Positions 50,155 to 64,000 of a stretch of 64,000 bases of DNA are shown piece after piece; within the stretch, counting starts at the first letter, position 1, and every line of letters starts with the position of its first letter. Below the pieces are notes generated by a model. It saw only the letters and a program-made list of their open reading frames with translations, did not search any database and was not told the origin of the DNA. Both the position numbers and the translations under genes were made by a program. The stretch is from Halobacillus sp. Marseille-P3879. GTDB lineage: Bacteria; Bacillota; Bacilli; Bacillales; Halobacillaceae. The stretch covers positions 868,001 to 932,000 of the forward strand of contig NZ_OESS01000002.1 in assembly GCF_900240285.1 (NCBI RefSeq), given 5' to 3'.

Positions 50155-51501
50155 TTAGAAAAATGCACGATATAATGATTGTACGGCCCGATTTAAATCA
50201 TCATCTTTAATCCCAAACATCATAGAAACTTCAGAAGACCCCTGGTTAATCATATCGATATTAACGCCAGCATCCTTAAATGCTGTTGAAGCTTTACTGG
50301 CTACGCCTATTGCTTCATTCATACCTTCACCAACGATCATTATCATGGCCATATTTCTTTCAATAGAAATGGTATCTACGTTTAATTCTGTTAAGATTCG
50401 CTTTTTAACTATTTCTTCCTTCTCTTCAGAAAGCTGATGATCTCTAATAATCACAGACATATCATCAATTCCTGATGGTGCATGCTCAAACGAAATGCCT
50501 TCCTCTTCAAGTATTTGAAGTAATTTACGGCCAAATCCAACTTCCCGGTTCATTAAATACTTACTTACGTATAAATTTAAAAACCCTGAGTCACTTGCGA
50601 TTCCAGCCACATGTCCTTCTCTTTCAGGAAGTTCTGCAACAATCATAGTGCCTTCGCCGTCCGGATTATTCGTATTTTTAATACACACAGGAATCTTTTC
50701 TTTAAAAGCCGGTATTAAGGCTTCATCGTGAAAAACAGAGAAACCGGCATAAGATAGTTCTCTCATTTCACGGTATGTTAGAGATTTTAACTCTTTAGGC
50801 TGTTCAACAATCATCGGATTAACGCAGAATACAGAGTCAACGTCTGTAAAGTTCTCATAAAGATCTGCTTTCATGCCTGCCGCAACAATTGAGCCGGTAA
50901 TATCAGAACCTCCGCGTGAAAAGGTAACTAAATCCCCGTCCAGCGTAAATCCAAAGAAACCAGGTATAACGAGTACACCGGCTTTGTCTCTTAATTTAAA
51001 TAAATGCTCAAAACTTTCATCAAGCACAAGGGCGCCGCCTGGTTCATCACTTACAAATATACCGGCATCTTTCGGATTAACATAAGAAGATTCCAGTTCC
51101 CTTGCGTTTAAGTAAGCACTTAATATCAATGCCGTGCCGTCTTCGCCACAAGACTTAAGAGCATCCATACCACGTTTTACATCTGTTTCTAAAATTTCAC
51201 AAGCATCATCAATACGTTTCTGAATGGTGTTGATAATAGAATGGTCTAATTCCAGTTCTCTAATAATAGATGCAAAGCGTTCAATCACCTGATCATAAAT
51301 GGCTTTATTTTTTACTTTCACTTGCACAGATTCTCCAAGGGCAATAAGAAGATCGGTTGTTTTCGTATCCTTGGAGTGCCTTTTACCAGGAGCAGAAACG
51401 ACAATTGCCTTCCTCTGGGGATCTGCTTTAATAATTTCTGAAACTTTTCTTAATTGATTCGCATCGGCAACTGAGCTGCCGCCGAATTTTACTACTTTCA
51501 T
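50155..51501 (-). CDS. Aspartate kinase
   Basis: A 448-residue aspartokinase of the monofunctional, lysine-type (ThrA/LysC/YclM) class, first step to Lys, Thr, Met and, in halophiles, ectoine. KFGGSSVADA (4-13) binds substrate, SRGGSDITGS (about 200-209) is the catalytic/ATP region, and two ACT domains follow from about 300 (GIASDSGFLNLYVS, MIMIVGEGMN). AGGGAGTTG precedes ATG 51501. No lysine riboswitch is seen upstream; ACT-mediated feedback is expected. No other pathway gene is adjacent. Confidence 0.92.
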   Translation of the reverse strand: MKVVKFGGSSVADANQLRKVSEIIKADPQRKAIVVSAPGKRHSKDTKTTDLLIALGESVQVKVKNKAIYDQVIERFASIIRELELDHSIINTIQKRIDDACEILETDVKRGMDALKSCGEDGTALILSAYLNARELESSYVNPKDAGIFVSDEPGGALVLDESFEHLFKLRDKAGVLVIPGFFGFTLDGDLVTFSRGGSDITGSIVAAGMKADLYENFTDVDSVFCVNPMIVEQPKELKSLTYREMRELSYAGFSVFHDEALIPAFKEKIPVCIKNTNNPDGEGTMIVAELPEREGHVAGIASDSGFLNLYVSKYLMNREVGFGRKLLQILEEEGISFEHAPSGIDDMSVIIRDHQLSEEKEEIVKKRILTELNVDTISIERNMAMIMIVGEGMNEAIGVASKASTAFKDAGVNIDMINQGSSEVSMMFGIKDDDLNRAVQSLYRAFF

Positions 51502-51557: not shown

Positions 51558-51980
51558 TAATCTGTCGAGAAGATGAAATACAAATTCATCATATTTTTAC
51601 TCAATCATAATTAAGACGGTCTCTCTATATAACTTTTTTAATTTAATTTCTTCTAAATTAAAAACAGTGTCCGCTACTAATTAAATAATTGTGTACGTGG
51701 AAGGTTTTAATGAAATTTCGTTAAAAAGTATTCTTAAATAACAATTTTGAATTGCACGGAAGTACTTTACAAATAAAGACGGTGGTTGATGATTCACATA
51801 TTTCATTTAGGAATTAAAATTTTCCACAAAAAAACCTCCTATAAATTGAGTGGGGTTTCCAAATCTTCTCAATGAATAAGAGATTAAAAACTGTTGGAAT
51901 AACACTGGTGTTTTATCGGTTTAAAATAATTTTTATTATTCACCAGTGACAACATATTAATCAATCATGAGTTCTATGAA
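51558..51980. other. AT-rich gap between aspartokinase and the spo0A fragment
   Basis: No gene is supported. An inverted repeat CACTGGTG/CACCAGTG (51903-51910 with 51941-51948) encloses a second one (AATAAT TTTT ATTATT), and an imperfect hairpin near 51826-51858 is followed by seven T on the minus strand. The latter is a candidate terminator for spo0A transcripts. Confidence 0.45.
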
Positions 51981-52172
51981 TTAAGACGCTTTGTGCTCTA
52001 ATCTTAAGCGGTCAGCTACCATCGCTATAAATTCGCTGTTTGTCGGTTTTGCTTTTGTAGAGGAGATTGTATAGCCAAATAAAGATGAAATTGCTTCAAT
52101 ATTTCCTCGGTTCCACGCCACTTCTATGGCATGACGGATAGCTCGTTCTACCCTCGAAGCCGTAGTATTATA
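51981..52172 (-). pseudogene. spo0A: spo0A 3' fragment (last 63 codons) at a prophage junction
   Basis: Minus-strand translation gives [20 protein letters not shown] then [40 protein letters not shown] and KAS before TAA. This is the C-terminal end of Spo0A, nearly identical to B. subtilis, covering the recognition helix and dimer end of the DNA-binding domain. There is no start; just upstream the frame reads ACT, then TAA (52178-52176), and phage DNA follows. The neighbours bkdR and yqzF show this is the true spo0A locus. Codons about 1-204 must lie beyond the prophage, outside the window, if present. Confidence 0.93.
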
Positions 52173-52180
52173 AGTTTAAA

Positions 52181-52199
52181 ACCCGTCTATTCATCGGGT
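52181..52199 (-). terminator. Weak hairpin at the attachment end
   Basis: ACCCG and CGGGT pair across a nine-base loop, followed on the minus strand by TTTAA and then the spo0A fragment. It could stop phage transcripts at the boundary. Confidence 0.45.
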
Positions 52200-52201
52200 A
52201 A

Positions 52202-52295
52202 TTTATTGGTATGATTTTAGATGTTTATTGGTCACTTGCGTAACCTATTTATAGAATAGACTATATTGTAGTAACTTGCAATAACTAATAGACTA
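52202..52295. repeat. Three pairs of short direct repeats next to the junction
   Basis: TTTATTGGT occurs at 52202-52210 and 52224-52232, ACTTGC plus TAAC at 52234-52244 and 52274-52285, and AATAGACTA at 52255-52263 and 52287-52295. They lie within 125 bases of the spo0A junction, before the first phage gene. They could be integrase or excisionase arm sites. Confidence 0.5.
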
Positions 52296-52353
52296 ATAAA
52301 AATACGCTATATAATAAGGAAGAAACACAAAAAACTAGTCAAGAATTGAGTAG

Positions 52354-52638
52354 TTACTTTGATACTCTCTCATTTACTTTATCTTTTATGATCGTTAGAA
52401 GTTTTATCACTTCAGCAAAACCTATAATCAATAAGCCAGATACCAATGTAGGAAGAAACCAAATTAAGAATATATTCCAATCAACTACATAAGTTATATC
52501 TGCCATATACAAAGCAACTATAATACCTAACGCAATTTCTAATCCTCCAACCCAGAACAATACCTGTGAAATACTACTGGGGTTTGGTTCTTGTATTCCA
52601 AAATGCGGCTCTACTGCCTCTTCGTTTCTTTCTTCCAT
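52354..52638 (-). CDS. Small two-helix membrane protein, phage
   Basis: A 94-residue protein not recognised. Two hydrophobic segments (about 24-46 and 57-82) follow a Glu-rich head. ATG 52638 has GGAGAG at eight bases; an upstream ATG is too close to its own site. It is the last prophage gene before the spo0A junction and is separated by a 98-base gap from the pilin-like pair. Confidence 0.6.
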   Translation of the reverse strand: MEERNEEAVEPHFGIQEPNPSSISQVLFWVGGLEIALGIIVALYMADITYVVDWNIFLIWFLPTLVSGLLIIGFAEVIKLLTIIKDKVNERVSK

Positions 52639-52736
52639 ATGTGTCACTCTCCCCATTCCTTATTTTGTTAATTATTCACTCTATTCTAAGGAAAGAAAGG
52701 GTATTCCTTCATTATTCTTATTTTATCAATCAATTT

Positions 52737-52946
52737 TTAATTTGTTATTACAATCATTCCCCCATAAAGGAATACTCCAATGACCCCTAATTTAGCTAAA
52801 CCTTTGCTAACCATATTCAGAAATGCATATACTCCTATTGATACACCCACCAAGAGAGGGGATACTGTAATATACTCCGCCAAGAGATCAGTCATTCCCT
52901 CTTTTGCCCTTCCAACAATCCACTCCGTTACAATACCCATCTTCAT
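52737..52946 (-). CDS. Small membrane protein next to pilin-like protein
   Basis: A 69-residue protein with a long hydrophobic stretch (about 26-67, SPLLVGVSIGVYAFLNMVSK onward). Its ATG overlaps the stop of the pilin-like gene as TAATG, and AAAGGAGTG lies upstream, so both are made together. Not recognised; could be a second subunit of a membrane channel or pore. Confidence 0.6.
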   Translation of the reverse strand: MKMGIVTEWIVGRAKEGMTDLLAEYITVSPLLVGVSIGVYAFLNMVSKGLAKLGVIGVFLYGGMIVITN

Positions 52947-53317
52947 TAAGACACTCCTTTCATGGCATCCACCAAGATATTCAACACCATTGGAGTCATC
53001 ATGACTAACACATAACCTAATCCAGCACCTTGCATCATTGAGAAGCCTTTCTCTTTATTACCAATCATAATAAATAAAGCTCCGCCTAATACCACAACCA
53101 TTGCAACTGGATAAGCCATAGCCTGAACTAAGCCTATTAATGGATCGAATGCTTTTACAACTGAGTTATACATTTGATCTGAACTTTGAGCAAATACTGG
53201 CTTTGCTGTGAAAAATGGTGCTACAGCTAAAGGAGCTAATGAAATGCCATGAAATTTAGTCTTTGCCTTGTAACTACCGTCCATAAACTCACCAAACTTA
53301 TAAGTCTTCGTTTTCAT
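52946..53317 (-). CDS. Pilin-like (VirB2/TrbC-type topology) membrane protein
   Basis: A 123-residue protein with a signal-like segment (about 25-45, LAPLAVAPFFTAKPVFAQS, cleavage likely after FAQ or nearby) and two membrane helices (about 66-85 and 92-115). This is the layout of VirB2/TrbC pilins of conjugation systems; sequence identity was not established. It is 11 bases downstream of the replication-relaxation gene. Confidence 0.55.
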   Translation of the reverse strand: MKTKTYKFGEFMDGSYKAKTKFHGISLAPLAVAPFFTAKPVFAQSSDQMYNSVVKAFDPLIGLVQAMAYPVAMVVVLGGALFIMIGNKEKGFSMMQGAGLGYVLVMMTPMVLNILVDAMKGVS

Positions 53318-53328
53318 GTGAATCCCCC

Positions 53329-53919
53329 TTAGATAAAGTCAGTATTTAAATACACATCTGCGTCTAAACCTTCGCATAATTCCAGCAACTTATTTCTCCT
53401 GTATTCTGTTGTGGTCATCCAAATTATCTTGGGTACGTTGCGAAATGCGTTACGTTCAATTAAACGCCTATACTTATCTATTTTCGTTCGATTCTTTTTC
53501 ATTGTCTGTGTATTATCGACTTCGACAATGAAATACCTGTTATCTAATTGAAAGATTGCATCAGGCACAACTGTTATCTTTCCTAATTTAATACGCATCT
53601 CATTTTCCCATGTCTCAGGGCTACCATAAGCAACATACAAAGCGTTTCTCATCAAGTAATGATTAATATTCCCAGTTTTTTTACGTACCTTGTCACACTC
53701 AACTCTAGAACGTCCCTTACTGTTCAGGTAGTAGATGTTCTGACCATCTTTAAAAGTGTTGAGATAAGGGCTCATTCGTTGCAATACTTTCTGAGCGTTA
53801 CGGTCACTTTTTAGATCATGTAAGACTTGTAATTGTCCCCTAGTCATATAGTCAAGCTTTTTCAAGGATAAGAGTATCTGTTCTTCCCTCTCCATTCTCT
53901 TTGCCTTGTTCTGATCCAT
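53329..53919 (-). CDS. Replication-relaxation family protein
   Basis: A 196-residue protein. An N-terminal winged helix (about 10-60, MTRGQLQVLHDLKSDRNAQK) is followed by a nuclease-like alpha/beta core (VVPDAIFQLDNRYFIVEVDN, about 117-136, with the D...EVD pattern), as in the replication-relaxation (Rep_relax) proteins of phages and mobile plasmids. It overlaps the FtsK-like gene by 68 bases. Its ribosome site and start codon are duplicated in tandem just upstream. Confidence 0.72.
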   Translation of the reverse strand: MDQNKAKRMEREEQILLSLKKLDYMTRGQLQVLHDLKSDRNAQKVLQRMSPYLNTFKDGQNIYYLNSKGRSRVECDKVRKKTGNINHYLMRNALYVAYGSPETWENEMRIKLGKITVVPDAIFQLDNRYFIVEVDNTQTMKKNRTKIDKYRRLIERNAFRNVPKIIWMTTTEYRRNKLLELCEGLDADVYLNTDFI

Positions 53920-55147
53920 GGTGTTCCCCCTTTACATGGTGTTCCCCCTTTGACCGAATCATAATATGCGGCTTAATAATCCTCTCAATATCTTTTTCTT
54001 TAATGTAGGGAGTTTGTGTAGTATGATTTTTAACTCTTCTGAATATTGCTCTTCCTTCAATCTCTGGAATCTCCTCAGCCCCACCTTCATCTAATACGGC
54101 TCTACTTTGCACATTGGTTTCTAATCGAAAACACAATCTTACACCGACATTTGCACGTACCTGCGAAGGCAGAGTCTCATTTGTAGGGTATTGAGTTGCA
54201 TAGATCAGTCTGTAACCTGCCGACCTACCACGTCTTGCAATATCTACAACTATATCCCTGCTTTCATCATCGAGACTTGCTGCCTCATCAATAACAATAA
54301 AATCACGTTCTTTTTGTCCTGCCCTTTTAATATCTTTTATGCCATTCTCAAACAACCAATCTAATTTCTTTTCCATGTCCTTTTGAATATTTTCTAATAT
54401 TCGCTTTGCTTCCTTAGTGCTTCTCCCAAAATTATTAGTTTGTTTTAACCCTTTGAAAGTGCCTAGTTCGGAGCCTCCCTTTAAATCGATCAAATTAAGC
54501 CTTACCTTGTCAGGTTGGTTCTTGACTAAAACAGAAATCAAAAGTTTTAAAAAGTCTGATTTTCCAAAACCTGTTGCACCAGCTACAATCATGTGGGGTC
54601 TTTTCTCAAAGTCATGAGTCATTAATTTATCCAATGTATATCCAACTGGTACTTTCCACCCTTTAACACTCTCCATCATTTCATCACTATAGGGATACAT
54701 AGTTTCAAGTCCCTTATCGTAAACCCTAAATTTCAGCATTCCGTCATATTCCATTTCTATATGTTTATCTAATTTAATACGGTTGTTAGCAATGTTTCTG
54801 ATTTGCTTTAATACATCCTTTTTCCAATTGATACTTTTCAGGTTAGACAAATTAAAATCTGACTGACTCTTATTATTTAGTCCATCGATGAACAGTTGTT
54901 TCTTTTCCTCAAAATCATTGAACGATAAGCCAAGTGGAATTTTATAAACATACTCGGTATAATTTTCCTTCCTCGTTTTTCGATAAATCCGAATCCCCTT
55001 TTTCACCTTATTTTCTCGGACAAACAATCCTGAACTGTCTGCGATTTTCTGGATCTTCGCATGATCATTTGAGTTTTTGTTCTGATAAAAATAAGTCCCT
55101 CCGACCACAGCTAACATACTTGCAGATGAAGCAATCTCAAAGAGCAA
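53852..55147 (-). CDS. FtsK/SpoIIIE-type DNA-translocating ATPase, phage
   Basis: A 431-residue protein: a short N-terminal hydrophobic segment (about 5-22) and a FtsK/SpoIIIE ATPase domain with Walker A GATGFGKSDF (about 186-195), Walker B DFIVIDEAAS (about 284-293) and a downstream YATQYPTNETLPSQVRAN sensor region. It lacks the gamma domain of FtsK. Such proteins in phages and integrative elements move DNA or act as coupling proteins. Start TTG 55147 has AAAGGGGTG upstream. The C-terminus contains a short HH-rich duplication (GEHHVKGEHHG) caused by a DNA repeat. Confidence 0.82.
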   Translation of the reverse strand: MLFEIASSASMLAVVGGTYFYQNKNSNDHAKIQKIADSSGLFVRENKVKKGIRIYRKTRKENYTEYVYKIPLGLSFNDFEEKKQLFIDGLNNKSQSDFNLSNLKSINWKKDVLKQIRNIANNRIKLDKHIEMEYDGMLKFRVYDKGLETMYPYSDEMMESVKGWKVPVGYTLDKLMTHDFEKRPHMIVAGATGFGKSDFLKLLISVLVKNQPDKVRLNLIDLKGGSELGTFKGLKQTNNFGRSTKEAKRILENIQKDMEKKLDWLFENGIKDIKRAGQKERDFIVIDEAASLDDESRDIVVDIARRGRSAGYRLIYATQYPTNETLPSQVRANVGVRLCFRLETNVQSRAVLDEGGAEEIPEIEGRAIFRRVKNHTTQTPYIKEKDIERIIKPHIMIRSKGEHHVKGEHHGSEQGKENGEGRTDTLILEKA

Positions 55148-55383
55148 ATCGCCACCCCTTTCAAGGTATCTTGATAAAGATAGTTGCTGTTCAAGCGAAT
55201 TTTGATAAAGGTTATGGATTCAGTCATATCAACAACTTTGAAATTCGCATAGATGTTACATTGCCGTATTTGAAAACGTATATGCCTAAGTATAGTAATT
55301 GCATAGGTTGTCCTATGACAAATTAGTTCTAATTTATTAAAGGGAAAAGTTGATTTATGTAGAAGTAGTATGCAGGTGATAAT

Positions 55384-55575
55384 ATGGAATGTAATTTAAA
55401 TGAGTGGATAAACAAACGTGGGTATAAGAAAAAATGGCTTGCCTCTCAAATAGGCGTAAGTGGAAATGTTCTTTCAAGATGGTGTAATGGGAGAAGCGAA
55501 CCATCATTAAGAAATGCTTTAATGCTTGCAGAATTATTGGAGTGTAATGTTGAGGACTTATTCAAATTGAAATAA
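55384..55575 (+). CDS. XRE-family small HTH regulator
   Basis: A 63-residue Cro/CI-type protein. The HTH is clear (about 17-45, KWLASQIGVSGNVLSRWCNG then SEPSLRNALMLAELL). AGGTG lies eight bases before ATG 55384. It is divergent from the FtsK-like gene, and the 236 bases between hold their promoters. It may regulate the right-end transfer-like genes rather than the main lysogeny switch. Confidence 0.8.
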   Translation: MECNLNEWINKRGYKKKWLASQIGVSGNVLSRWCNGRSEPSLRNALMLAELLECNVEDLFKLK

Positions 55576-55577
55576 AA

Positions 55578-55607
55578 AAACCCTACACCTAATGAAAGAT
55601 GTAGGGG
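55578..55607 (-). terminator. Terminator facing the XRE gene
   Basis: CCCTACA (55581-55587) pairs with TGTAGGG (55600-55606); on the minus strand seven T follow. It blocks minus-strand transcripts from running into the XRE gene. Confidence 0.75.
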
Positions 55608-55954
55608 AAAATAGGATTAAAAGGGTGATTCACTTTACATCTCACTAAATTGTGTAGATGTGTGGTATGGAGAAATTATTTCCATTGTAGTATATATTTT
55701 CTTTTTTGTGTAGAAGTAATAAAGCATAAGGTATATTTTTACACTTTCTTTACTTCCTTTATTTTTCTACCCTGTATGACAGGCAGTTTATAAGCAAGTA
55801 TATGGGCCGTTTCTGCAAATACGATTTCCAAACTAGCGTACTGGAGAAAACTTATCAATTGATACCGCAGCTCTTTAAATTGTCTAGACTTCTTGGGGTT
55901 AATTTTGGGGATTTGTAACGAATACAAAGAAGAGAATGTATGAGAGATATCATA
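55608..55954. other. Phage intergenic stretch
   Basis: AT-rich. TGTAGAAGTA followed by RTA occurs here (55709-55721) and again just upstream of the XRE gene (55358-55370), and could be an operator pair. A 72-codon minus-strand frame (55957-55739) lacks a usable ribosome site and begins at a terminator T-run, so it is not called. Confidence 0.4.
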
Positions 55955-56002
55955 CAAACAAAAATAAGCCCCTCACGTTTTACTTGGTGTAGGGCTTATT
56001 AC
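55955..56002 (-). terminator. Terminator of the toxin-antitoxin operon
   Basis: AATAAGCCC (55992-56000, reverse) and GGGCTTATT pair with a long loop; TTTGTTTG follows on the minus strand. It lies about 50 bases after the toxin stop codon. Confidence 0.75.
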
Positions 56003-56050
56003 TAAGTCTTCTTTTATCCAAAGGAGAAAACTTTCTAAGTGTATTATTCT

Positions 56051-56461
56051 TTATAAAGAATTTCTTTGTCGAACTGTTGTTTCTATGTATCTAACTTGAG
56101 TAACGGGGTTTTGCGCACTATATTTAGTGTACTCATTTACGAGCCGTGAAAGTTCTGAAGAATCAATAGGTGACCTTCTCTTGTAAATTGACTTATGCAA
56201 ATCCTCAAAATAATCAATGGTATATAATTCATCCATTTTTATAAATGATGGTGCATCAAGAGGAGGATTAAAATTATTTATTCTTTCATTAGAAGGAAAT
56301 AATAATTTCCTCTCTTTTCCTCTTATAGATGAAACATTTAATAAATCTAGAGATGAATTATTATAATTCTCAATTACAAGAAAAGGTCTTTTATAATTAC
56401 ATGGGGTTCCGTTAGCAAAGGGTAAACTTAGTACAAGAGCGTGGCCTGCTATAATCGGCAT
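56051..56461 (-). CDS. Putative PemK/MazF-like toxin paired with Panacea antitoxin
   Basis: A 136-residue protein. LSLPFANGTPCNYKRPFLVI (about 12-31) followed by LDLLNVSSIRGK has the beta-barrel pattern of PemK/MazF ribonucleases (strand, RP, VI, SS). The rest is atypical, so the toxin fold is inference. Its ATG overlaps the stop of the upstream antitoxin as TAATG, the usual layout for a toxin-antitoxin operon. Confidence 0.62.
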   Translation of the reverse strand: MPIIAGHALVLSLPFANGTPCNYKRPFLVIENYNNSSLDLLNVSSIRGKERKLLFPSNERINNFNPPLDAPSFIKMDELYTIDYFEDLHKSIYKRRSPIDSSELSRLVNEYTKYSAQNPVTQVRYIETTVRQRNSL

Positions 56462-57126
56462 TAGGAGATTATAACTCCTTGTTGCTCATCAAATGTTAGA
56501 GTGTAAGCCTCATCTGGACAACCTAAATTTTCTAACATCGAAAGAAGCTCTTCGTTTAACGTTATTTCATCAGGATCATAATAAAAAGTTACCCCATTAA
56601 CTACCTCTGATACTTTTGAAGTATCATAATCATCATATGCTTCCAGCATTTGCTTTACTTTCTTCACGTCACCCATGAAAATTCCGTCCATTGGTCGAAT
56701 GATGCTTCTTGCAGTTTTATAAATATGTGGTTGTTCTGTTTTTGATTCTCTGTAAGGTATTTGCCAACTACTTAATTCGTGATTAAGGTCTGACAATTCT
56801 TTCGCTGACATTTCACCAAAGATACTAGCTGTTAATTCTAGTGTGTGGGTTACCTCTTCATTTTCAAAAACAAGCATATTTTCAGATTGCTCAATTAAAC
56901 CGTAAAGTGAATCTCTATAGGTCAATCGTACGTCATTAATAACTGTGCCATTTTCGTATGCTCTCATTTCTTCAGCAAACAACAATTTCCCATACTTAGC
57001 AACATGGATAAGTTGGGAAAAATACAATAATTTCTGCAATTTCATGTTTCCATCAAAAGTGTTACGTGGAGAATCTAGATTATTCTTAATAAACCATTTT
57101 GCCACATCAATAGCTTTAGTACTCAT
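56461..57126 (-). CDS. Panacea-domain (SocA-like, DUF4065) antitoxin
   Basis: A 221-residue protein. The N-terminal 150 residues match the Panacea/SocA/GepA domain (AIDVAKWFIKNN, MKLQKLLYFSQLIHVAKYGK, FAEEMRAYENGTVINDVR), a domain known to neutralise many unrelated toxins in PanAT systems. A C-terminal extension (about 150-221) may define toxin specificity. GGGGGT precedes ATG 57126. Confidence 0.82.
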   Translation of the reverse strand: MSTKAIDVAKWFIKNNLDSPRNTFDGNMKLQKLLYFSQLIHVAKYGKLLFAEEMRAYENGTVINDVRLTYRDSLYGLIEQSENMLVFENEEVTHTLELTASIFGEMSAKELSDLNHELSSWQIPYRESKTEQPHIYKTARSIIRPMDGIFMGDVKKVKQMLEAYDDYDTSKVSEVVNGVTFYYDPDEITLNEELLSMLENLGCPDEAYTLTFDEQQGVIIS

Positions 57127-57298
57127 TTTTCTACCCCCTTCTACAATAGTATCATTAAATATTACATTTGTGATTTTAAAAATACTTTAAAGTGAATTTT
57201 TCACCCACTAATCTCTACATTCCCGTTCATATCTTATATTACACTTTTCCCCCTTTCCATAGACCCTATTTCGACAATTAGGTTAAGAATTCCTTCAA

Positions 57299-57637
57299 TT
57301 ATAAAAATATTACGTTAATAATGTCATAAAAATTTAGTTGGATATCATCTTTTTCTTGTTGGTCGATACAGCTTACTTTCTTTGTATCCCCGTTCATACC
57401 TACCACCTTCACAGGTACGTAGGTGTAATTGTGTCCATTATGGTACTTGAGTTCAACAGTTAGATTATCATTCATAGCCATTTCTAACGCAAATGCATGA
57501 TCTTGGATCTGCTGCTCATCCAGTACAGGTTTATCAACTCTGGTTTGTTCCTTATAGACTTCCTGAACCATTTGAACGTGTTCAGGCATCATAAGCGAAG
57601 TCCATTTTTTAGTACCTCGATCATTAATTTCACGCAT
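57299..57637 (-). CDS. YolD-like protein
   Basis: A 112-residue YolD-family protein (RGTKKWTSLMMPEHVQMVQE near 7-26 is the family signature). YolD proteins usually accompany a Y-family polymerase UvrX in phages and on plasmids. Here none is adjacent, so it is an orphan in this window. GGGAGG precedes ATG 57637, and an SOS-type box lies 19 bases upstream of the start. Confidence 0.85.
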   Translation of the reverse strand: MREINDRGTKKWTSLMMPEHVQMVQEVYKEQTRVDKPVLDEQQIQDHAFALEMAMNDNLTVELKYHNGHNYTYVPVKVVGMNGDTKKVSCIDQQEKDDIQLNFYDIINVIFL

Positions 57638-57655
57638 AGTCTACGCCTCCCAACA

Positions 57656-57669
57656 AGAACGGTTGTTCT
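57656..57669. promoter_or_regulatory. SOS (LexA) box upstream of yolD-like gene
   Basis: AGAAC-GGTT-GTTCT is a perfect 5-4-5 palindrome matching the GAAC-N4-GTTC core of Bacillus SOS boxes, directly ahead of the YolD-like gene. Confidence 0.7.
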
Positions 57670-57751
57670 CATTATATCCAAACAGACTAACCTTAATCAA
57701 TAAAATATTCCGTTAGTTATTAATCTATTTTTTAGTAACTTATTCATTTTA

Positions 57752-57760
57752 TGGTAAAAT
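57752..57760 (+). promoter_or_regulatory. Extended -10 promoter of the plus-strand gene pair
   Basis: TGGTAAAAT is an extended -10 element about 28 bases before the start at 57788, so the pair has its own promoter against the direction of the late genes. Confidence 0.6.
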
Positions 57761-57787
57761 AGTCTTACAACAAAGGGGGAAGATGGT

Positions 57788-58006
57788 ATGGAAATAAATT
57801 ATAGAAATGGCGTGTTCTCTGTGGCTGCTGAAGGTGAATACATACTATTATTAAATAAATGTGTTTTTTATCCACAAAACTTTACAGATGAAGATCTTAA
57901 TAATGAAGTGTGGATTCAGTTGGCGAGTAAAAAAGAAGGTTTTTGGAAGGTATGGTTATATAACGGGAAGTTATTATTTGAAAAATTAAGTGAGGTGAAG
58001 TTATGA
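57788..58006 (+). CDS. Small phage accessory protein
   Basis: A 72-residue soluble protein rich in aromatic residues (FWKVWLYNGKLLFEKL). Not recognised. AAAGGGGGAAG precedes ATG 57788. Its last codons overlap the start of the next gene as ATGA, so the pair is coupled. Confidence 0.65.
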   Translation: MEINYRNGVFSVAAEGEYILLLNKCVFYPQNFTDEDLNNEVWIQLASKKEGFWKVWLYNGKLLFEKLSEVKL

Positions 58007-58629
58007 GTGCGGATATATGGATGGTTATTCTAACAGGATTATACGTCTTTCTAACTTATCTTATATTAAAATCAAACAAGCGTATGATCGAAGAGACAAA
58101 GAACATGACTGACGAAACTAAAATTGCCAGAAACATGGCTTATAGACCTGAAGTTATTGGATTTTTTAAGGAAGAAAATAAAGCATTGTATTTCGAAATT
58201 AAAAATATTGGCTCTCGAGTTGCGTTTGATTGCACTTTAAGTTTAGAACCAGGGTTTAATATTTATACTTATTTACCTGAAAACGACTTCATGGATGTTG
58301 AGTCTCCTAACTTAGTAAAACGGATAAAAGTATTAGCTCCTGATCAAAGATTAGAACAATTTGTTGGAGATCATCAGGAGATTTTGAAACACTACAAGAA
58401 TAGTGTTGAATCAAATCCAGATCCAATCAATAATAATGCACTTGATACAAAACTCGTAATTAGGTATTTTGATTACGAAGGAAACTGTTACTCCGAAGAA
58501 TACGAAGTGACTTTATTAGATTATAACAATCACAAAGGTGTTATAAGGCGAGACACACATGACTTAGTGAATGAAATAATTAAGCTGAATAATACGATAA
58601 GTGAGTTGAAATCATTTAGAAGAAAATAA
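58003..58629 (+). CDS. Membrane-anchored phage accessory protein
   Basis: A 208-residue protein with one N-terminal membrane helix (about 5-25, IWMVILTGLYVFLTYLILKS), a short coiled linker, and a soluble beta-rich domain (about 45-175, NKALYFEIKNIGSRVAFDCT) ending in a helix. Not assigned to a family. Such anchored proteins expressed from a prophage often act on the host envelope, for example in excluding other phages; that is inference. Confidence 0.68.
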   Translation: MSADIWMVILTGLYVFLTYLILKSNKRMIEETKNMTDETKIARNMAYRPEVIGFFKEENKALYFEIKNIGSRVAFDCTLSLEPGFNIYTYLPENDFMDVESPNLVKRIKVLAPDQRLEQFVGDHQEILKHYKNSVESNPDPINNNALDTKLVIRYFDYEGNCYSEEYEVTLLDYNNHKGVIRRDTHDLVNEIIKLNNTISELKSFRRK

Positions 58630-58655
58630 CCCCACTAATAAGTGGGGAATTATTT
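58628..58655. terminator. Bidirectional terminator between accessory pair and endolysin
   Basis: CCCCACT (58630-58636) pairs with AGTGGGG (58641-58647) with a four-base loop and T-rich flanks on both strands, serving the two convergent genes. Confidence 0.8.
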
Positions 58656-59772
58656 ATACTTTCCTACCAAACTGACCAGATACGTATCCTCGCTTACCAT
58701 CGTAGATAACTTCCCAATATCCTCTAGGATTATTTTTGCCTTTAACAGAGCCTGAAATATTTACCGTAGCGTTCTTTTTAATTGTTCCGATATTTTTGCT
58801 ACTATTCCTGTCCGGTTTATCCATTACAATTGCAGCGCTGTTAACACCAATAATTTTAATCTTGCCTTTTACTGGACTAGAAGATTTCTTAGGTGTGGCT
58901 GTTTTTGGTGCTGCTGATTTACTTCCTCCACGCATCTTGCTTAGAAGAGATATGTTTTGTGGAGCAGTACCTTTATATCTAGAAATACCATATTTAGCAG
59001 CCAATTTTGCACGATAGTTGAAGCTAGAATCTACTCCAATACTTTTTAGGTATGTAACAATACTTGTTGTTTTCATGTCTCCATTAGAAGCTGGCTTAGG
59101 AGCAGGTTTACTTGCAGTTTCCTTAATTTTAATCTTCTCACCAATTTTAAGTTTTGATGGATCAACAGATGGGTTTAGTTTCTTAAGATCGTCAACAGAT
59201 AATCCTTCGTTTTCATTTGCAATACTCCAGAAAGTATCACCTTGTTGAATAGTGTGAGTAGAAGCACCAGAAGCAGGAACGCTTGCAAATTCTTTTTCGC
59301 CTGAACATACAGCACGGTAGTCAAACTCAGGGCAAGCCTTCCAAGAGTATCCCGGGAATTCATTATGCCCACGAGTACGTTTATAGTTAGGCATATCTTT
59401 CTTCAAACAATCTACAAGTTGTTTTAGTGACCGTTTTTGTGCTTCAGTAGGTTTTTCTGATCTAAAGTCTCCTACAAGGCAAATACCAACAGCGAATTTA
59501 TTTGAGTTACCTACATGATAGCTAAGTACACCTAAGTCATGGTTCCATTCGATTGTACCGTCTTTAAGGATTACAAAGGCATAGGCGATTTCGTGCCATC
59601 CATTTGTATGTACATGATAATTTGCAAAAGAATAGGAGTCTCCTTCTTTTGTCAATGAATGATGAATAGCTATGTCCGTTTTAACGCTGACATCATAAAC
59701 TGGTTGCCAGCCGTTATGAGCAGTCTTCCCACGTAGATCTTTTAACTGGCTTAATTTTTCAAAATGTGCCAT
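58654..59772 (-). CDS. Endolysin: amidase with LysM and SH3-type wall-binding domains
   Basis: A 372-residue N-acetylmuramoyl-L-alanine amidase. An amidase-2/PGRP domain (about 1-155; zinc residues in AIHHSLTKEG, RGHNEFPG and KACPEFDYRA) is followed by a LysM (about 172-216, HTIQQGDTFWSIANENEGL), an XlyA/BlyA-type module (about 234-285, YLKSIGVDSSFNYRAKLAAK) and an SH3b-like domain (about 300-372). It cuts peptidoglycan at lysis. AAGGAGAG precedes ATG 59772. It follows the holin by about 55 bases. Confidence 0.92.
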   Translation of the reverse strand: MAHFEKLSQLKDLRGKTAHNGWQPVYDVSVKTDIAIHHSLTKEGDSYSFANYHVHTNGWHEIAYAFVILKDGTIEWNHDLGVLSYHVGNSNKFAVGICLVGDFRSEKPTEAQKRSLKQLVDCLKKDMPNYKRTRGHNEFPGYSWKACPEFDYRAVCSGEKEFASVPASGASTHTIQQGDTFWSIANENEGLSVDDLKKLNPSVDPSKLKIGEKIKIKETASKPAPKPASNGDMKTTSIVTYLKSIGVDSSFNYRAKLAAKYGISRYKGTAPQNISLLSKMRGGSKSAAPKTATPKKSSSPVKGKIKIIGVNSAAIVMDKPDRNSSKNIGTIKKNATVNISGSVKGKNNPRGYWEVIYDGKRGYVSGQFGRKV

Positions 59773-59828
59773 TATTTATTCTCTCCTTGATTTAAATTTA
59801 AAAAGACTCCCTTAAAAGGAAGCCTTAA

Positions 59829-60320
59829 TCATTTATTCTGGTTATTATTAATACCTGGTTTTTCGTCCGATTTTTCAGAAGCTTTAGTCACTGGCTTTGG
59901 AATAGGAAGCCTTTTTTTGTCTAACTTCTTGACTATGTTATCCTCTTTACCAATTTCATGTATGTATTTTGCAATACCCTTGGGAATTGGAATACCCATT
60001 CTATCTAGATTCTCAAGTATGGAGATTCCTTCATTTCCTATGTAAAAGAATACTGCCATTGTTCTAAATACGGGTGCTCCTGATCCTACGAGTACATCAA
60101 GCATATTCGCTAAAATGATGACTAGAATAAACACTCCTTTCTTAAGAATGCCTCTAAATCCTACTGCACTTTTTAACTGTTTGTTGTAAGCACCTGCAGC
60201 CATTCCAGTAAGAAAATCAATAACCATAAATACTGCTAAAACAGTTAAGGATACATGCCACCCTCCTATAAGGAACGCTGTAATTGTTCCCCCTACTGCC
60301 AAAATCATTTTTAACTCCAT
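59829..60320 (-). CDS. Phage holin (TcdE/holin_4_1 family)
   Basis: A 163-residue holin with three to four hydrophobic segments (about 4-22, 25-45, 63-80, 90-105; for example AVFMVIDFLTGMAAGAYN, the family signature) and a basic, Pro-rich tail. It would permeabilise the membrane for endolysin. ATG 60320 has AAGGGG at nine bases. A second in-frame ATG at 60344 has its own AAAGGAG, giving a longer form with eight extra residues, four of them basic. Confidence 0.86.
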   Translation of the reverse strand: MELKMILAVGGTITAFLIGGWHVSLTVLAVFMVIDFLTGMAAGAYNKQLKSAVGFRGILKKGVFILVIILANMLDVLVGSGAPVFRTMAVFFYIGNEGISILENLDRMGIPIPKGIAKYIHEIGKEDNIVKKLDKKRLPIPKPVTKASEKSDEKPGINNNQNK

Positions 60321-60369
60321 TCTTTTATTCCCCTTCTTAACCATTTTGCTCCTTTGTCTCCTTGTGGGA

Positions 60370-60906
60370 TTACCATGTAATTTCTTTGACTTCTTCAATT
60401 GTCTTTGCATCTTTTACTTGAGGCTCTAAAAAGTCTCGAAACTTTGAAATATTATTTTGCTTATGCATAAGAATAGCTACAGTTAACTCACTCATAATTT
60501 CGGATGTAACAGGTATCCGTGTGTACTCTCCATCTTTTCTCACTGTCCACATGACTTCATCAACGATTCCTTCTTTCAACACTTCCTTTAGATCCCCGAA
60601 GTTTACTTGTGCTTCAAGATCATAAGAAAAATGGTACTCAACTCCATCAATGACATGAAAAAAGCCTGCTAAAATAGCAGACTCACATGCCTTATCTAAT
60701 TCAATTATCTTCTTTTCTTTGGCATCTTTCAGTACCCCACCAGTATCCTTGAACAGCTTTCTGTTTTCGTATTTGTACGCAAATGGAGAGGATAAAACAC
60801 CATGATTTTCTTCGACTTCAATTTCAATGCTGTTATTAGACGATGGAGAAGTTCCCCAACCGTCCACCCTACCATCTTCCAATACTTCTATGTAAATTTT
60901 TTTCAA
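60370..60906 (-). CDS. DUF4376-like phage protein
   Basis: A 178-residue protein between tail fibre and holin. The middle (about 60-115, KKIIELDKACESAILAGFFH then VEYHFSYDLEAQVNFGDLKE) fits the DUF4376 domain found in tail-associated phage proteins. Start is TTG 60906 with AAAGGAG nine bases before. Its exact job is unknown; position suggests tail fibre assembly or attachment. Confidence 0.7.
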   Translation of the reverse strand: MKKIYIEVLEDGRVDGWGTSPSSNNSIEIEVEENHGVLSSPFAYKYENRKLFKDTGGVLKDAKEKKIIELDKACESAILAGFFHVIDGVEYHFSYDLEAQVNFGDLKEVLKEGIVDEVMWTVRKDGEYTRIPVTSEIMSELTVAILMHKQNNISKFRDFLEPQVKDAKTIEEVKEITW

Positions 60907-60923
60907 TCCGTTGGACTCCTTTC

Positions 60924-63296
60924 TTAATAAGATAGTACATACCTTAATACGTTCAAATCTTGAGGTGCTTCCCTGTTTCTGTCATGTCCATTTATTTCCG
61001 TGTCTGAACAATAAACATATTTCATTGAAGTTTCTGGACTTGAAATAGGAGTAGTTCCATTAATACACCACATACCACCTGCTGTTAAATTTGCGAACTC
61101 TTTAGGAACGTGTGTGAATCCCCAATGTGAGTTATCGGCACTTCCTGTATACCCACTCCAAACTAATATCCACCCATTAGGACACTCAGACATTTTCTTT
61201 GAGGGGGTTATTGTTTGGGAAGCCTGCACATACAAAGCTCCCTCCCAAAGAACCCCATAACCTTCTGTACCTATTGGATTACCATTTAAAATAACAACAC
61301 CATCTTGTACTCTTAAAAGGTCGTAATCTTCTGGATTTGTAGAACCCGATTCAACACCATTTTTCAAGAAGTTTAAGCCTTCGCCTCCACCACCAGAATA
61401 ATCATTAAAGAAAAGACCATTTAAACCTACAATGTCAGAGTTATTTAAGTCCATTGCTCCTGCGACATCTTCTTCACTTACATTAGAAGCCCATTTATTT
61501 GCACCAAAACGAAGACGGCTATTAATTAAAAGCTCATTTTGATTAGTTGGAAAGTCGTTTATACCAATAGATTTAAGTATAGGGTCAATAAAAAATAAAG
61601 GCTGTCCCGTGTCCAATTTTTGAGTTATTGTAGTACTGCCTAGTTCATCCATAACTCTGAACTCGAAGTTATAAGCCTTAGTGGAATCTAGTGTTAAGTT
61701 TATTTTTTCGCTTGAAAATTCCCCTCCACTTAAAGTGTGATCTAAGGAAGTCCAAAACCCAAAACCTGTCTCTTCAGAATCCTTGTATCTATACTCAATT
61801 TGATTTATTACATTCTTAGGTTCGTTATCTACACTTAACAAGGAAATGTCACCTTTAAGTTGGACTGTTGTAGTTTCCTCAAATCCATTTAATCTCTTTG
61901 TAGCTGAAACAATTGAAGGATTACTATAAGGAATCACATCTACTGGAATACTTGTAGTTGTAGTAAGACCCCTACTATCCACAGCTTTTACAACAAGTGA
62001 TTGGTCATTATTTGCATCAATTGAACCGAAATCAAATTGCACATCATCACTTGAACTATAGTCAGCATTTTTACTTGTACCTGCTATTGTAGCTGAGTAC
62101 GAAACCATTGAAGCTCCATTTTGAGCAGTTGCTTTTGCAGAAGCAGGAATAGTGACCACAAGGTTAGAATGATTGGAGATTATGTATTGATCGTTTAGTG
62201 TAATATCCTTCGTAGTTTGATTTGTGTCTGCATACGTATAATTTTCTTCAAATATCGGATTACTGTTTCTAACGTTGAAATTAAGTAATTCACTTGTGGT
62301 ACTCCTAACCTTTATGCCATTGTAGAACGTCTCAACTTCAATTGAACCATCTTTACTCTTATCGTTCGGCATCTGATCATATAGACTCGTCTTTTCTGTT
62401 GCATCAGGAGTCCAAGAAAATGAAGAGTCTACATCTGTAAATGTCTTCGTGTATGAACCTAATTTTATTCTTAGATTATGTTCAAAATCAGAATGATCTT
62501 TATCCAGTGTTCCAGAGATTGTATCATCTACATAAACATAATGATCGAACTTGCTATTTGGTTTACTTGCAGACGGTGCTGTTAAAGTACCATCATAATA
62601 TCTGCTACCAATCCAATTGTCTCCATCATATGTTTGAAGAATTACATGGGTTGGTGCGCTTGATCTTCCGTCTAACAGTTCAAAAATATTAGTATTCTGT
62701 AACAAACTGAATGAAGTTGACTTAGAAGTTTCAGAAGTGGATAGCAACACTTGATTTACGTGTTGTTCATCTCCTGATCTATCAAACACATACATTTCAA
62801 CTTCATGCCTAAACCTAGAAGAATACCTTTTAATTGTTATTGTACGGTTACTACCTGCTGTCCAAGATGGACTAGAGGTTAAATGTGACTGTCTTGGAAT
62901 CGTGTTTAATGTAAAGGATTGTTGATCTAAATCAATCCTACCTACCCAACCACTAATATCAACCTCAGCGTCAAAATAACCATCTAATGAAAAATTTCCT
63001 TTACCATCATCGTCATGATTAATTGTAAACTCGTAGGTCTGAATCCATTTCTTCTGATTAGCTTTAAGAGCAGCCATACCACTAGCTGTTCTTGTTACAA
63101 ACGAACCGTTATTATATTGCATTGCACATGTTTTCGTTGCACTTGAGTAAACTGCACCGTAATCATCTCTAGCGATCCAGTACATCTTTGCAGTTACATC
63201 AGATTTATTTCCTGATATGTCTTGAGTTGCAGACCAATCAATTTGTAACCTCCAATGTCCATTTACATTCTTTCCAAAACTACCACTTAACGCCAT
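60924..63296 (-). CDS. Phage tail fibre / minor structural protein (DUF859-like)
   Basis: A 790-residue structural protein. The first about 600 residues fit the DUF859 tail protein of siphoviruses, with repeated beta-rich segments (SGSFGKNVNGHWRLQIDWSA at the start). The C-terminal part (about 620-790) differs in style, with a Gly-rich hinge (DYSGGGGEGLNFL) and a compact end domain that may bind the receptor. AAAGGATAG precedes ATG 63296. Confidence 0.8.
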   Translation of the reverse strand: MALSGSFGKNVNGHWRLQIDWSATQDISGNKSDVTAKMYWIARDDYGAVYSSATKTCAMQYNNGSFVTRTASGMAALKANQKKWIQTYEFTINHDDDGKGNFSLDGYFDAEVDISGWVGRIDLDQQSFTLNTIPRQSHLTSSPSWTAGSNRTITIKRYSSRFRHEVEMYVFDRSGDEQHVNQVLLSTSETSKSTSFSLLQNTNIFELLDGRSSAPTHVILQTYDGDNWIGSRYYDGTLTAPSASKPNSKFDHYVYVDDTISGTLDKDHSDFEHNLRIKLGSYTKTFTDVDSSFSWTPDATEKTSLYDQMPNDKSKDGSIEVETFYNGIKVRSTTSELLNFNVRNSNPIFEENYTYADTNQTTKDITLNDQYIISNHSNLVVTIPASAKATAQNGASMVSYSATIAGTSKNADYSSSDDVQFDFGSIDANNDQSLVVKAVDSRGLTTTTSIPVDVIPYSNPSIVSATKRLNGFEETTTVQLKGDISLLSVDNEPKNVINQIEYRYKDSEETGFGFWTSLDHTLSGGEFSSEKINLTLDSTKAYNFEFRVMDELGSTTITQKLDTGQPLFFIDPILKSIGINDFPTNQNELLINSRLRFGANKWASNVSEEDVAGAMDLNNSDIVGLNGLFFNDYSGGGGEGLNFLKNGVESGSTNPEDYDLLRVQDGVVILNGNPIGTEGYGVLWEGALYVQASQTITPSKKMSECPNGWILVWSGYTGSADNSHWGFTHVPKEFANLTAGGMWCINGTTPISSPETSMKYVYCSDTEINGHDRNREAPQDLNVLRYVLSY

Positions 63297-63315
63297 ACTA
63301 TTTATCTATCCTTTC

Positions 63316-64000
63316 TTAATCAATACTTGGGATGAATGCCAGCCCCTTTATTTCAGGAGAGTCTACAACTACCATCTTTACAGGCTTAATGTTAATTTCT
63401 TTATCAACTTGTACTTTAGACACTTCTGTAACATCGCCATTTAACGTAAATACTTTTTCCATATAAACATTTCCCTCTTCATCTGCTACCTCTGAATACC
63501 CAGAAAACTCTTCAGGTGTGATTGCTGTATAACCTTTAGTATTGAATGAATTAACCTTGATACCGTTCATATCAATCCTTACATTAGTATTGTAAATTTC
63601 TCCATTAGCCATCGACCATTGACGGGGAGAGTCACCTTCGTTGAGCATAATGTTTGTGAAAGTAGCATCAGCATCATTTGACCCTACTCTAAGAGTAATA
63701 TCATCCTCTTGAGCAATAAAGGTTGCTGAATAATATTTATATCCATCTGTATCCACATCGGTTTCAGTGTATTGAGAAAAGGCTCTACGGTCATCATTCA
63801 TGTCACCGTTGTAAACTATCACATAAGCACGATTGTCGGAATTAGTTGCTTTAACATACCAAGACATTGTATATTCTTGACCAGCACTAACCTTAATATC
63901 TTGGTAAAGGTTTACCCAATCCGTACTCTTCTTGAAGTGAAAACCAGAACCAGCACCGATTTTTTTAAGTTCATCGTTTTGAATGGTTTCAGGTGTTCCA
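63316..64000 (-). CDS. Phage tail/minor structural protein, C-terminal part (cut by window edge)
   Basis: The frame is open from the window edge to TAA at 63316, about 228 codons. It contains a carbohydrate-binding-module-like beta segment (YTMSWYVKATNSDNRAYVIV, YYSATFIAQEDDITLRVGSN) and a closing part about NGIKVNSFNTKGYTAI. This layout is typical of the C-terminus of long phage minor structural proteins, such as tail endopeptidase/lysin proteins. The start lies outside. Confidence 0.75.
   Translation of the reverse strand, partial: GTPETIQNDELKKIGAGSGFHFKKSTDWVNLYQDIKVSAGQEYTMSWYVKATNSDNRAYVIVYNGDMNDDRRAFSQYTETDVDTDGYKYYSATFIAQEDDITLRVGSNDADATFTNIMLNEGDSPRQWSMANGEIYNTNVRIDMNGIKVNSFNTKGYTAITPEEFSGYSEVADEEGNVYMEKVFTLNGDVTEVSKVQVDKEINIKPVKMVVVDSPEIKGLAFIPSID

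Follow-up and report, generated by a model that had tools for sequence, protein, structure and literature searches.

The sporulation switch gene spo0A stands intact at one end of a prophage whose other end carries a second copy of the last 63 codons of the same gene. We consider it highly probable that a temperate phage integrates in the 3' part of spo0A and supplies a replacement end, by which the gene is kept full-length. The window, that is, the whole 64,000-nucleotide stretch analysed here, corresponds to C8:868001-932000, C8 being a 1.34-Mb contig in a genome of 4.17 Mb in 9 contigs (labelled G000). What was observed directly comprises both arms of the repeat, the whole spo0A gene with a tyrosine integrase next to it, the native junction, and an integrase lineage associated with spo0A.

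The events behind this arrangement would be as follows. Site-specific recombination would insert a temperate phage into the 3' part of spo0A, with a copy of the spo0A end (193 bp here) present in the attachment site of the phage. The host 5' part would be joined to the phage-borne end to give a full-length spo0A, and the previous end would be displaced to the far side of the prophage. The adjacent integrase would recombine at the repeat, with CCRATAAA-type repeats as its arm sites and a hairpin insulating its gene (int), and a related element, now decayed, would have occupied the site before. spo0A would thereby be whole in the lysogen and after excision alike.

The two ends of the prophage

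The relevant features of the window are listed below in window coordinates.

50155..51501, minus strand: aspartokinase, the native downstream neighbour of spo0A (NF006540, 643 bits; after spo0A in 6/6 congeners fetched)
51811..51979, minus strand: probable remnant of a second spo0A-type integrase, consisting of its decayed leader and first codons, from collinear alignment to the leader of viral locus L147
51980..52172, minus strand: displaced Spo0A 3' end (last 63 codons, stop codon and 1 nt), the attR-side arm of a 193-bp perfect direct repeat
52173..64000, no strand: prophage part inside the window, continuing to the integrase at L013:9067-10053, directly downstream of the intact spo0A
52190..52231, minus strand: three CC(G/A/T)A(T/C)(A/G)AA-type repeats beside the displaced tail (52190-52197, 52202-52209, 52224-52231), probable integrase arm-binding sites
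52946..53317, minus strand: TrbC/VirB2 pilin-like protein (PF04956, 28.8 bits, cut-off 27.9)
53329..53919, minus strand: replication-relaxation family protein (PF13814, 50.1 bits)
53852..55147, minus strand: FtsK/SpoIIIE-type ATPase (PF01580, 69.8 bits)
58654..59772, minus strand: endolysin-like protein with amidase, LysM and SH3 domains
59829..60410, minus strand: holin family protein (PF05105, 127 bits)
60924..63296, minus strand: large protein between holin-side and tail-side genes, a tail or fibre protein by position only, with no Pfam match

Positions 51984-52172 of the window matched the end of Spo0A (TIGR02875 positions 200-262, 115.5 bits). A search of the genome for the Spo0A C-terminal domain returned two places, one complete (C8:960218-960529, minus strand, model 1-104, 153 bits) and one partial (C8:920005-920175, minus strand, model 48-104, 81 bits), the latter being the fragment in the window. 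The initial annotation had recognized here the lone last 63 codons of Spo0A at the syntenic spo0A locus, and the TIGR02875 match together with the aspartokinase neighbour bears this out. The in-frame TAA that it had noted lies one codon (three bases) ahead of the Spo0A homology, and the join that it had placed near 52173 coincides with the point at which DNA identity with the intact gene stops, 52172/52173. The displaced and intact copies are identical at 193/193 bases, starting at codon 195 and ending 1 nt beyond the stop, and the nearest of six congeners compared with the fragment shows 86.5% identity over 192 nt (26 mismatches); the fragment is thus no chance resemblance. The displaced tail is followed by the aspartokinase gene, and the same order, spo0A followed by aspartokinase, is present without the element in each of the six congeners fetched for neighbourhood comparison from the ten in our family-level sample. 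The fragment therefore marks the native junction and, with aspartokinase lying 3' of it, the prophage sits inside the spo0A-aspartokinase junction.

The intact spo0A (257 codons; C8:960194-960967, equal to L013:10194-10967) lies outside the window on the same contig, about 40 kb from the fragment, and its product scored 396.5 bits against TIGR02875 (cut-off 200). Upstream of it are the genes for SpoIVB, RecN, ArgR, TlyA and Dxs, of which SpoIVB, RecN, ArgR and Dxs exceeded NCBIfam equivalog cut-offs and TlyA a subfamily cut-off. Reading beyond position 64000, as had been proposed, thus led to a full-length spo0A next to spoIVB at the far prophage end. Two earlier suggestions, that the prophage cuts spo0A and that sporulation is shut off until the phage excises, do not survive this result, with the intact gene and its upstream spoIVB 40 kb away on the same 1.34-Mb contig. 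The other reading then offered, in which a 3' end comes with the phage itself in the manner of e14 in icd, spo0A stays whole and the fragment is the displaced original end, is the one supported. The further suggestion, that either way the phage state is linked to the sporulation switch, finds no support, since the upstream region of spo0A is kept and the identical tails encode the same protein in the integrated and excised states. With a gene end that the phage would supply, spo0A is complete whether the prophage is present or not. These results indicate that spo0A is not cut and that the insertion is of the e14/icd type.

Between the two copies lie about 40 kb with Pfam matches to terminase subunits, portal, prohead protease, capsid, tape measure, holin and the endolysin-like protein, and the element reads as a tailed-phage prophage, siphovirus-like. 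Near the displaced tail, window positions 52946-55147 hold an ICE-like module of pilin-like, replication-relaxation and FtsK-type genes within this tailed-phage prophage, a gene set more usual in conjugative elements. The IMG/VR contig UViG 2884416301_000002 (39,685 bp) encodes a 100% identical integrase and showed no difference in 10,038 compared bases; it may come from the same genome.

The integrase (PF00589, 104.8 bits) adjoins the att repeat directly after the intact spo0A. Its residues R179, H269, R272, H295 and Y305, which we take to be the R...H-x-x-R...H...Y residues of tyrosine recombinases, are invariant in 9/9 integrases aligned; judged by profile and residues, it is a tyrosine recombinase. 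None of the NCBIfam models reached its cut-off with this protein, the best being of the XerA type (157 of 220 bits). Scanning with the single sequence returned one distant relative among genome contigs and one identical sequence among viral contigs, and its matches among annotated phages, 429 records, were all below 60% identity. Counting from the spo0A stop codon, int could start after 140 nt at the earliest, and an ATG behind a hairpin, at 155 nt, is the likelier start.

An integrase lineage at the end of spo0A

The search of other genomes that had been called for was carried out, and displaced Spo0A tails beside an intact spo0A were found elsewhere in the order as well. On the same contig and strand, 12/397 order-level genomes carry such a tail downstream of the intact gene, at a distance of 2 to 42 kb. 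The underlying Pfam census lists only best matches and misses short tails (G041 and G169 came only via the integrase). Forty census genomes were re-searched, comprising 38 with two or more matches and two with odd single matches (G103, G174); the re-search left out G000, which was already known, and G006, G014, G017, G019 and G021, whose second matches were internal partial matches elsewhere in the genome. In 12/12 tail genomes the gene directly after spo0A, in the same orientation, encodes an integrase of one and the same family. Two of these integrase genes are disrupted, by an inserted gene in G362 and by internal stops in G258, and the match in G419 ends at model position 288 of 328. The split integrase beside spo0A in G362 (L131:5307-8180) is interrupted by a transposase-like ORF of about 550 codons.

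Counted back from the end of the stop codon, the repeat begins at 192 nt in G000, at 133 nt in G189 and at 93-99 nt in the other ten order-level cases. Five further displaced tails were found, with repeats of 53 bp in G041, 65 in G169, 64 in G621 and 160 in G758, all 100% identical, and of 132 bp (92%) in G717; the tail search beyond the first 12 genomes covered these five and also G701, G457, G724 and G819, and in the last four no displaced tail was present in a stretch of 20 kb per genome. Over the 17 repeat pairs we counted 14 synonymous changes, 4 non-synonymous changes and 11 changes at or after the stop codon (1, 2 and 8 of these, respectively, in G717); in G362 the two copies differ by a Met in the intact gene against a Thr in the displaced end. 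All 17 repeats share the stretch from -60 to -7 relative to the end of the stop codon.

We built an integrase profile from nine spo0A-adjacent members and searched it in four overlapping genome samples. Members were found in 13/397 genomes at order level (E 1e-60), 13/398 at class level (1e-50; 10 of them with at least 200 bits), 3/398 at phylum level and 2/44 at family level (G000 and G041, the next best match scoring 158 bits). The spo0A-adjacent lineage is thus present in about 3% of the order-level species sampled (13/397). Across the samples 24 distinct genomes scored at least 200 bits, and in 24/24 the integrase lies beside spo0A or a displaced tail, G362 being counted via its 5' integrase fragment and G523 via a very weak tail match only (10.8 bits). 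Half of them (12/24) were found by the integrase and not by the tail: G041, G169, G457, G523, G595, G621, G701, G717, G724, G758, G786 and G819. Three class-level matches at 176-184 bits (G698, G515, G667) had no Spo0A within 1.5 kb. A full-length spo0A adjoins int in 22/24 occupied genomes, the exceptions being G419, with a frameshift near position 51 of spo0A, and G523, with only the weak tail in the stretch fetched. At two other loci, L143 (G043) and L144 (G091), spo0A is frameshifted at an A-run near codon 195 through an apparent 1-nt loss, which looks like a sequencing error or phase variation.

Scanning viral contigs with the profile gave 28 loci, 26 in the family and two remote. Four of the 26 have more than 150 nt of upstream sequence, and a codirectional Spo0A tail is present in 4/4; the remaining family loci begin close to a contig edge or right at it, and L147, for which 150 nt are available upstream, shows no tail. 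Of ten viral contigs with int beside a tail, six had been fetched by tail queries and are not independent evidence. Three edge-case integrases have a Spo0A tail elsewhere on their contig (L151/L057, L161/L060, L162/L058), and a fourth (L167/L065) has one by a 20-residue match only. An exact-pattern scan of the viral contigs for the attR arm gave no match. A 59-row tree placed the 27 codirectional rows without exception in one 44-row group (support 95/90), which also takes in 16 contig-edge rows and L147. The integrase lineage appears to be specific to spo0A, and offers for comparison a protein-gene attachment site with many occupants, in which the end of spo0A is used without breaking the gene.

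The same tree contains a seven-row group (100/100), six of whose integrases flank the tail on its opposite side and are directed away from it. They form a second integrase group upstream of Spo0A tails (L063, L044, L055, L056, L061, L062), and contig IMGVR_UViG_2879489548_000001 (L063) has both integrase kinds at one and the same tail, the arrangement that two stacked elements would produce.

Crossover, arm sites and leader hairpin

Differences between the two copies bear on which of them is the newcomer. In G284 the copies differ at four sites (-28, -25, -22 and one right behind the stop codon); the single close relative agrees with the displaced copy at 4/4, which is what a newly arrived end on the intact gene would give. 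For G181, the relatives nearest to it, three in number and 90-91% identical upstream, agree with the intact copy at 3/3 coding differences (-58, -55, -52), and three more distant relatives mostly agree with the displaced copy. The two genomes can be reconciled only by a crossover between -52 and -28, which would make the last 9 to 17 codons element-borne; we infer that the crossover probably occurs within the repeat in this interval. The extent of the part common to all repeats likewise implies that the phage-borne coding part may be short. At -19 and -11, where G717 has two amino-acid changes in its displaced copy, both relatives agree with the intact one, a pattern that fits the model only if the displaced copy has drifted, as it may have. 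G189 is mixed, and the identical copies of G000 cannot tell; given that identity and the 26/192 differences from the nearest congener, the phage copy stems from this or a very close species, or has been homogenised. A crossover about 95 nt before the stop codon, at the left edge of most repeats, was also considered, and both the shorter repeats of G041, G169 and G621 and the G181 result spoke against it.

The repeats beside the displaced tail recur in other members. Since the CC(G/A/T)A(T/C)(A/G)AA motif was derived from the same sequences, its enrichment is overstated by the counts, namely 19 occurrences to the left of 12/12 displaced tails (mean 1.0, maximum 4 in 300 shuffles) and 15 in 11/12 spo0A-int gaps (mean 0.45, maximum 4 in shuffles), with none in the G284 gap. 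These CCRATAAA-type repeats on both sides are likely integrase arm sites. A promoter-like match whose second hexamer lay at the repeat boundary was dropped, with 5 found against 4.9 expected in shuffles.

Behind the displaced tail, before the native spacer, the genome carries about 360 nt of DNA in excess of the closest congener. The first ~170 nt of it, 51811..51979, aligned to the L147 leader with a score of 84 (maximum 64 in 200 shuffles) and to this phage's own leader with a non-significant 58 (shuffle maximum 60); this stretch ends in a Shine-Dalgarno-like sequence, GTG, five more codons and a stop. Behind the displaced tail, G258 has an integrase fragment (model 6-48, 33 bits) and G189, G261 and G419 have similar hairpins. 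The decayed leader is probably what remains of an earlier, related occupant. Some 220 nt, window positions 51588-51810, between decayed leader and native spacer, had no convincing match in the sequences compared.

We compared the folding of a fixed window, set around the 70 nt that precede int, with that of shuffles. A hairpin with z < -3 was obtained in 20/22 loci (median -5.1), the exceptions being G000 (-2.70) and G595 with a decayed integrase (-0.75), and the controls, the final 75 nt of spo0A and an internal stretch of int, gave 0/22 each. Twenty examples folded singly had z from -3.3 to -8.5, values biased by windows picked around the hairpin. By eye, its 3' arm holds a purine-rich Shine-Dalgarno-like stretch followed by a T-run. 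RNAalifold returned no consensus structure (zero pairs), probably owing to variable loop lengths, as the MAFFT alignment does not register the stems. The first possible int start precedes the hairpin in several genomes, which makes the true start uncertain. A transcript from spo0A could form the hairpin, so that termination or hiding of the start would be expected; whether it insulates int from spo0A transcription we would put at about an even chance.

The simple alternative, and the first mechanism we considered, is that spo0A transcription reads into int and that the element can excise once the host is committed to sporulation. In every member seen int points the same way as spo0A, in 10/12 order-level cases it could start as early as 86-165 nt past the spo0A stop (G362 and G258 being disrupted), and the native spacer stands behind the displaced tail, not behind the intact gene. 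The strong hairpin and T-run between the two genes nevertheless made insulation likelier and point to it rather than to coupling, which we regard as unlikely. We find somewhat more doubtful still an elaborate version, in which the spo0A-dwelling lineage would sense sporulation: the leader hairpin would hide the int start, a condition of early sporulation would open it, and the element, bearing the last ~9 to 17 codons of Spo0A, would excise or move before the spore forms. Were this true, the element-borne Spo0A end would be an open route for elements to alter the regulator. How elements are kept silent downstream of a gene under developmental control can be tested clearly at the spo0A site.

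Other origins of the fragment fare worse. A segmental duplication or assembly artefact abutting the prophage could account for the perfect 193-bp identity, which an assembler could produce, but other genomes show this anatomy too, with repeats of differing length and copies that mismatch, the integrase lineage is tied to the site and the fragment lies at the native aspartokinase junction; we hold this to be very improbable. Equally improbable is a phage-encoded regulator made of the Spo0A effector domain, such as does occur on phages in gut viromes (excerpts of PMC10294663), for the fragment starts inside the domain, has a stop codon just ahead of it and copies the end of the resident gene. 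Interruption of spo0A with developmental restoration, as with skin/sigK or SPbeta/spsM, is suggested by the resemblance of the fragment alone to the 3' part of a split gene and by such elements in later sporulation genes (excerpts of PMC10747680 and PMC4191935), yet it is practically negligible given the complete gene at the other end of the same prophage and beside int in 22/24 occupied genomes.

Comparison with known systems

Truncated spo0A homologues carrying the effector domain are described from gut viromes (PMC10294663, in part), and the Spo0A C-terminal domain is listed as enriched on gut mobile elements (PMC6907783, in part). Compared with those homologues, att tails start later, at model position 182 or beyond, and only complete the host gene. 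Viral loci fetched by Spo0A queries gave 31 rows of tails starting from position 182 or later inside the contig, 14 edge-starting, 29 effector-domain-only and 4 full-length rows, some contigs giving two rows; the effector-domain-only proteins at L072, L073, L075, L077 and similar loci start at about position 123-148. Among annotated phages the tail matched 13 records and full Spo0A 138, the best being unannotated fecal contigs. Virus collections therefore hold two kinds of Spo0A pieces, att tails that complete a host gene and effector-domain genes that may act, which surveys need to separate; part of the enrichment on gut mobile elements could be att tails.

Several sporulation gene-intervening elements use serine recombinases, unlike the tyrosine recombinase at spo0A. 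In the sections of the papers cited, elements with site-specific recombinases lie inside sporulation genes in skin/sigK, SPbeta/spsM, vfbin/spoVFB and yin/yabG (PMC10747680) and in gin/gerE (PMC5595907). The spo0A element shares with the skin/sigK type a sporulation gene and a recombinase; those elements split the gene and excision rebuilds it, whereas spo0A is unsplit and intact at the far prophage end, so that the target gene is not interrupted.

According to excerpts of PMC11658703, terminator T1 at the left end of Tn916 insulates element genes from host transcription at the integration site. The spo0A element likewise has a terminator-like hairpin between the host promoter and its own genes; insulation is demonstrated for T1 and may occur here, and unlike T1 the hairpin also holds in its 3' arm a Shine-Dalgarno-like stretch before int.

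A literature search with most subscription journals outside its coverage, and several sources available in part, found no report of spo0A as an attachment site. The nearest parallel is e14, which integrates in the 3' part of icd, supplies a replacement 3' end and leaves the displaced duplicate opposite (PMC6379469, in part). In both systems the 3'-end repeat is present at both element ends, with a full-length ORF on one side and a headless fragment on the other. In contrast to e14/icd, the target here is the master regulator of sporulation, the two copies in G000 are identical where with e14 the protein changes conservatively, and the integrase lineage recurs in many genera. Tail-replacing integration is thus a known kind of event, spo0A is a target for which we found no report, and the breadth of the lineage is the new part.
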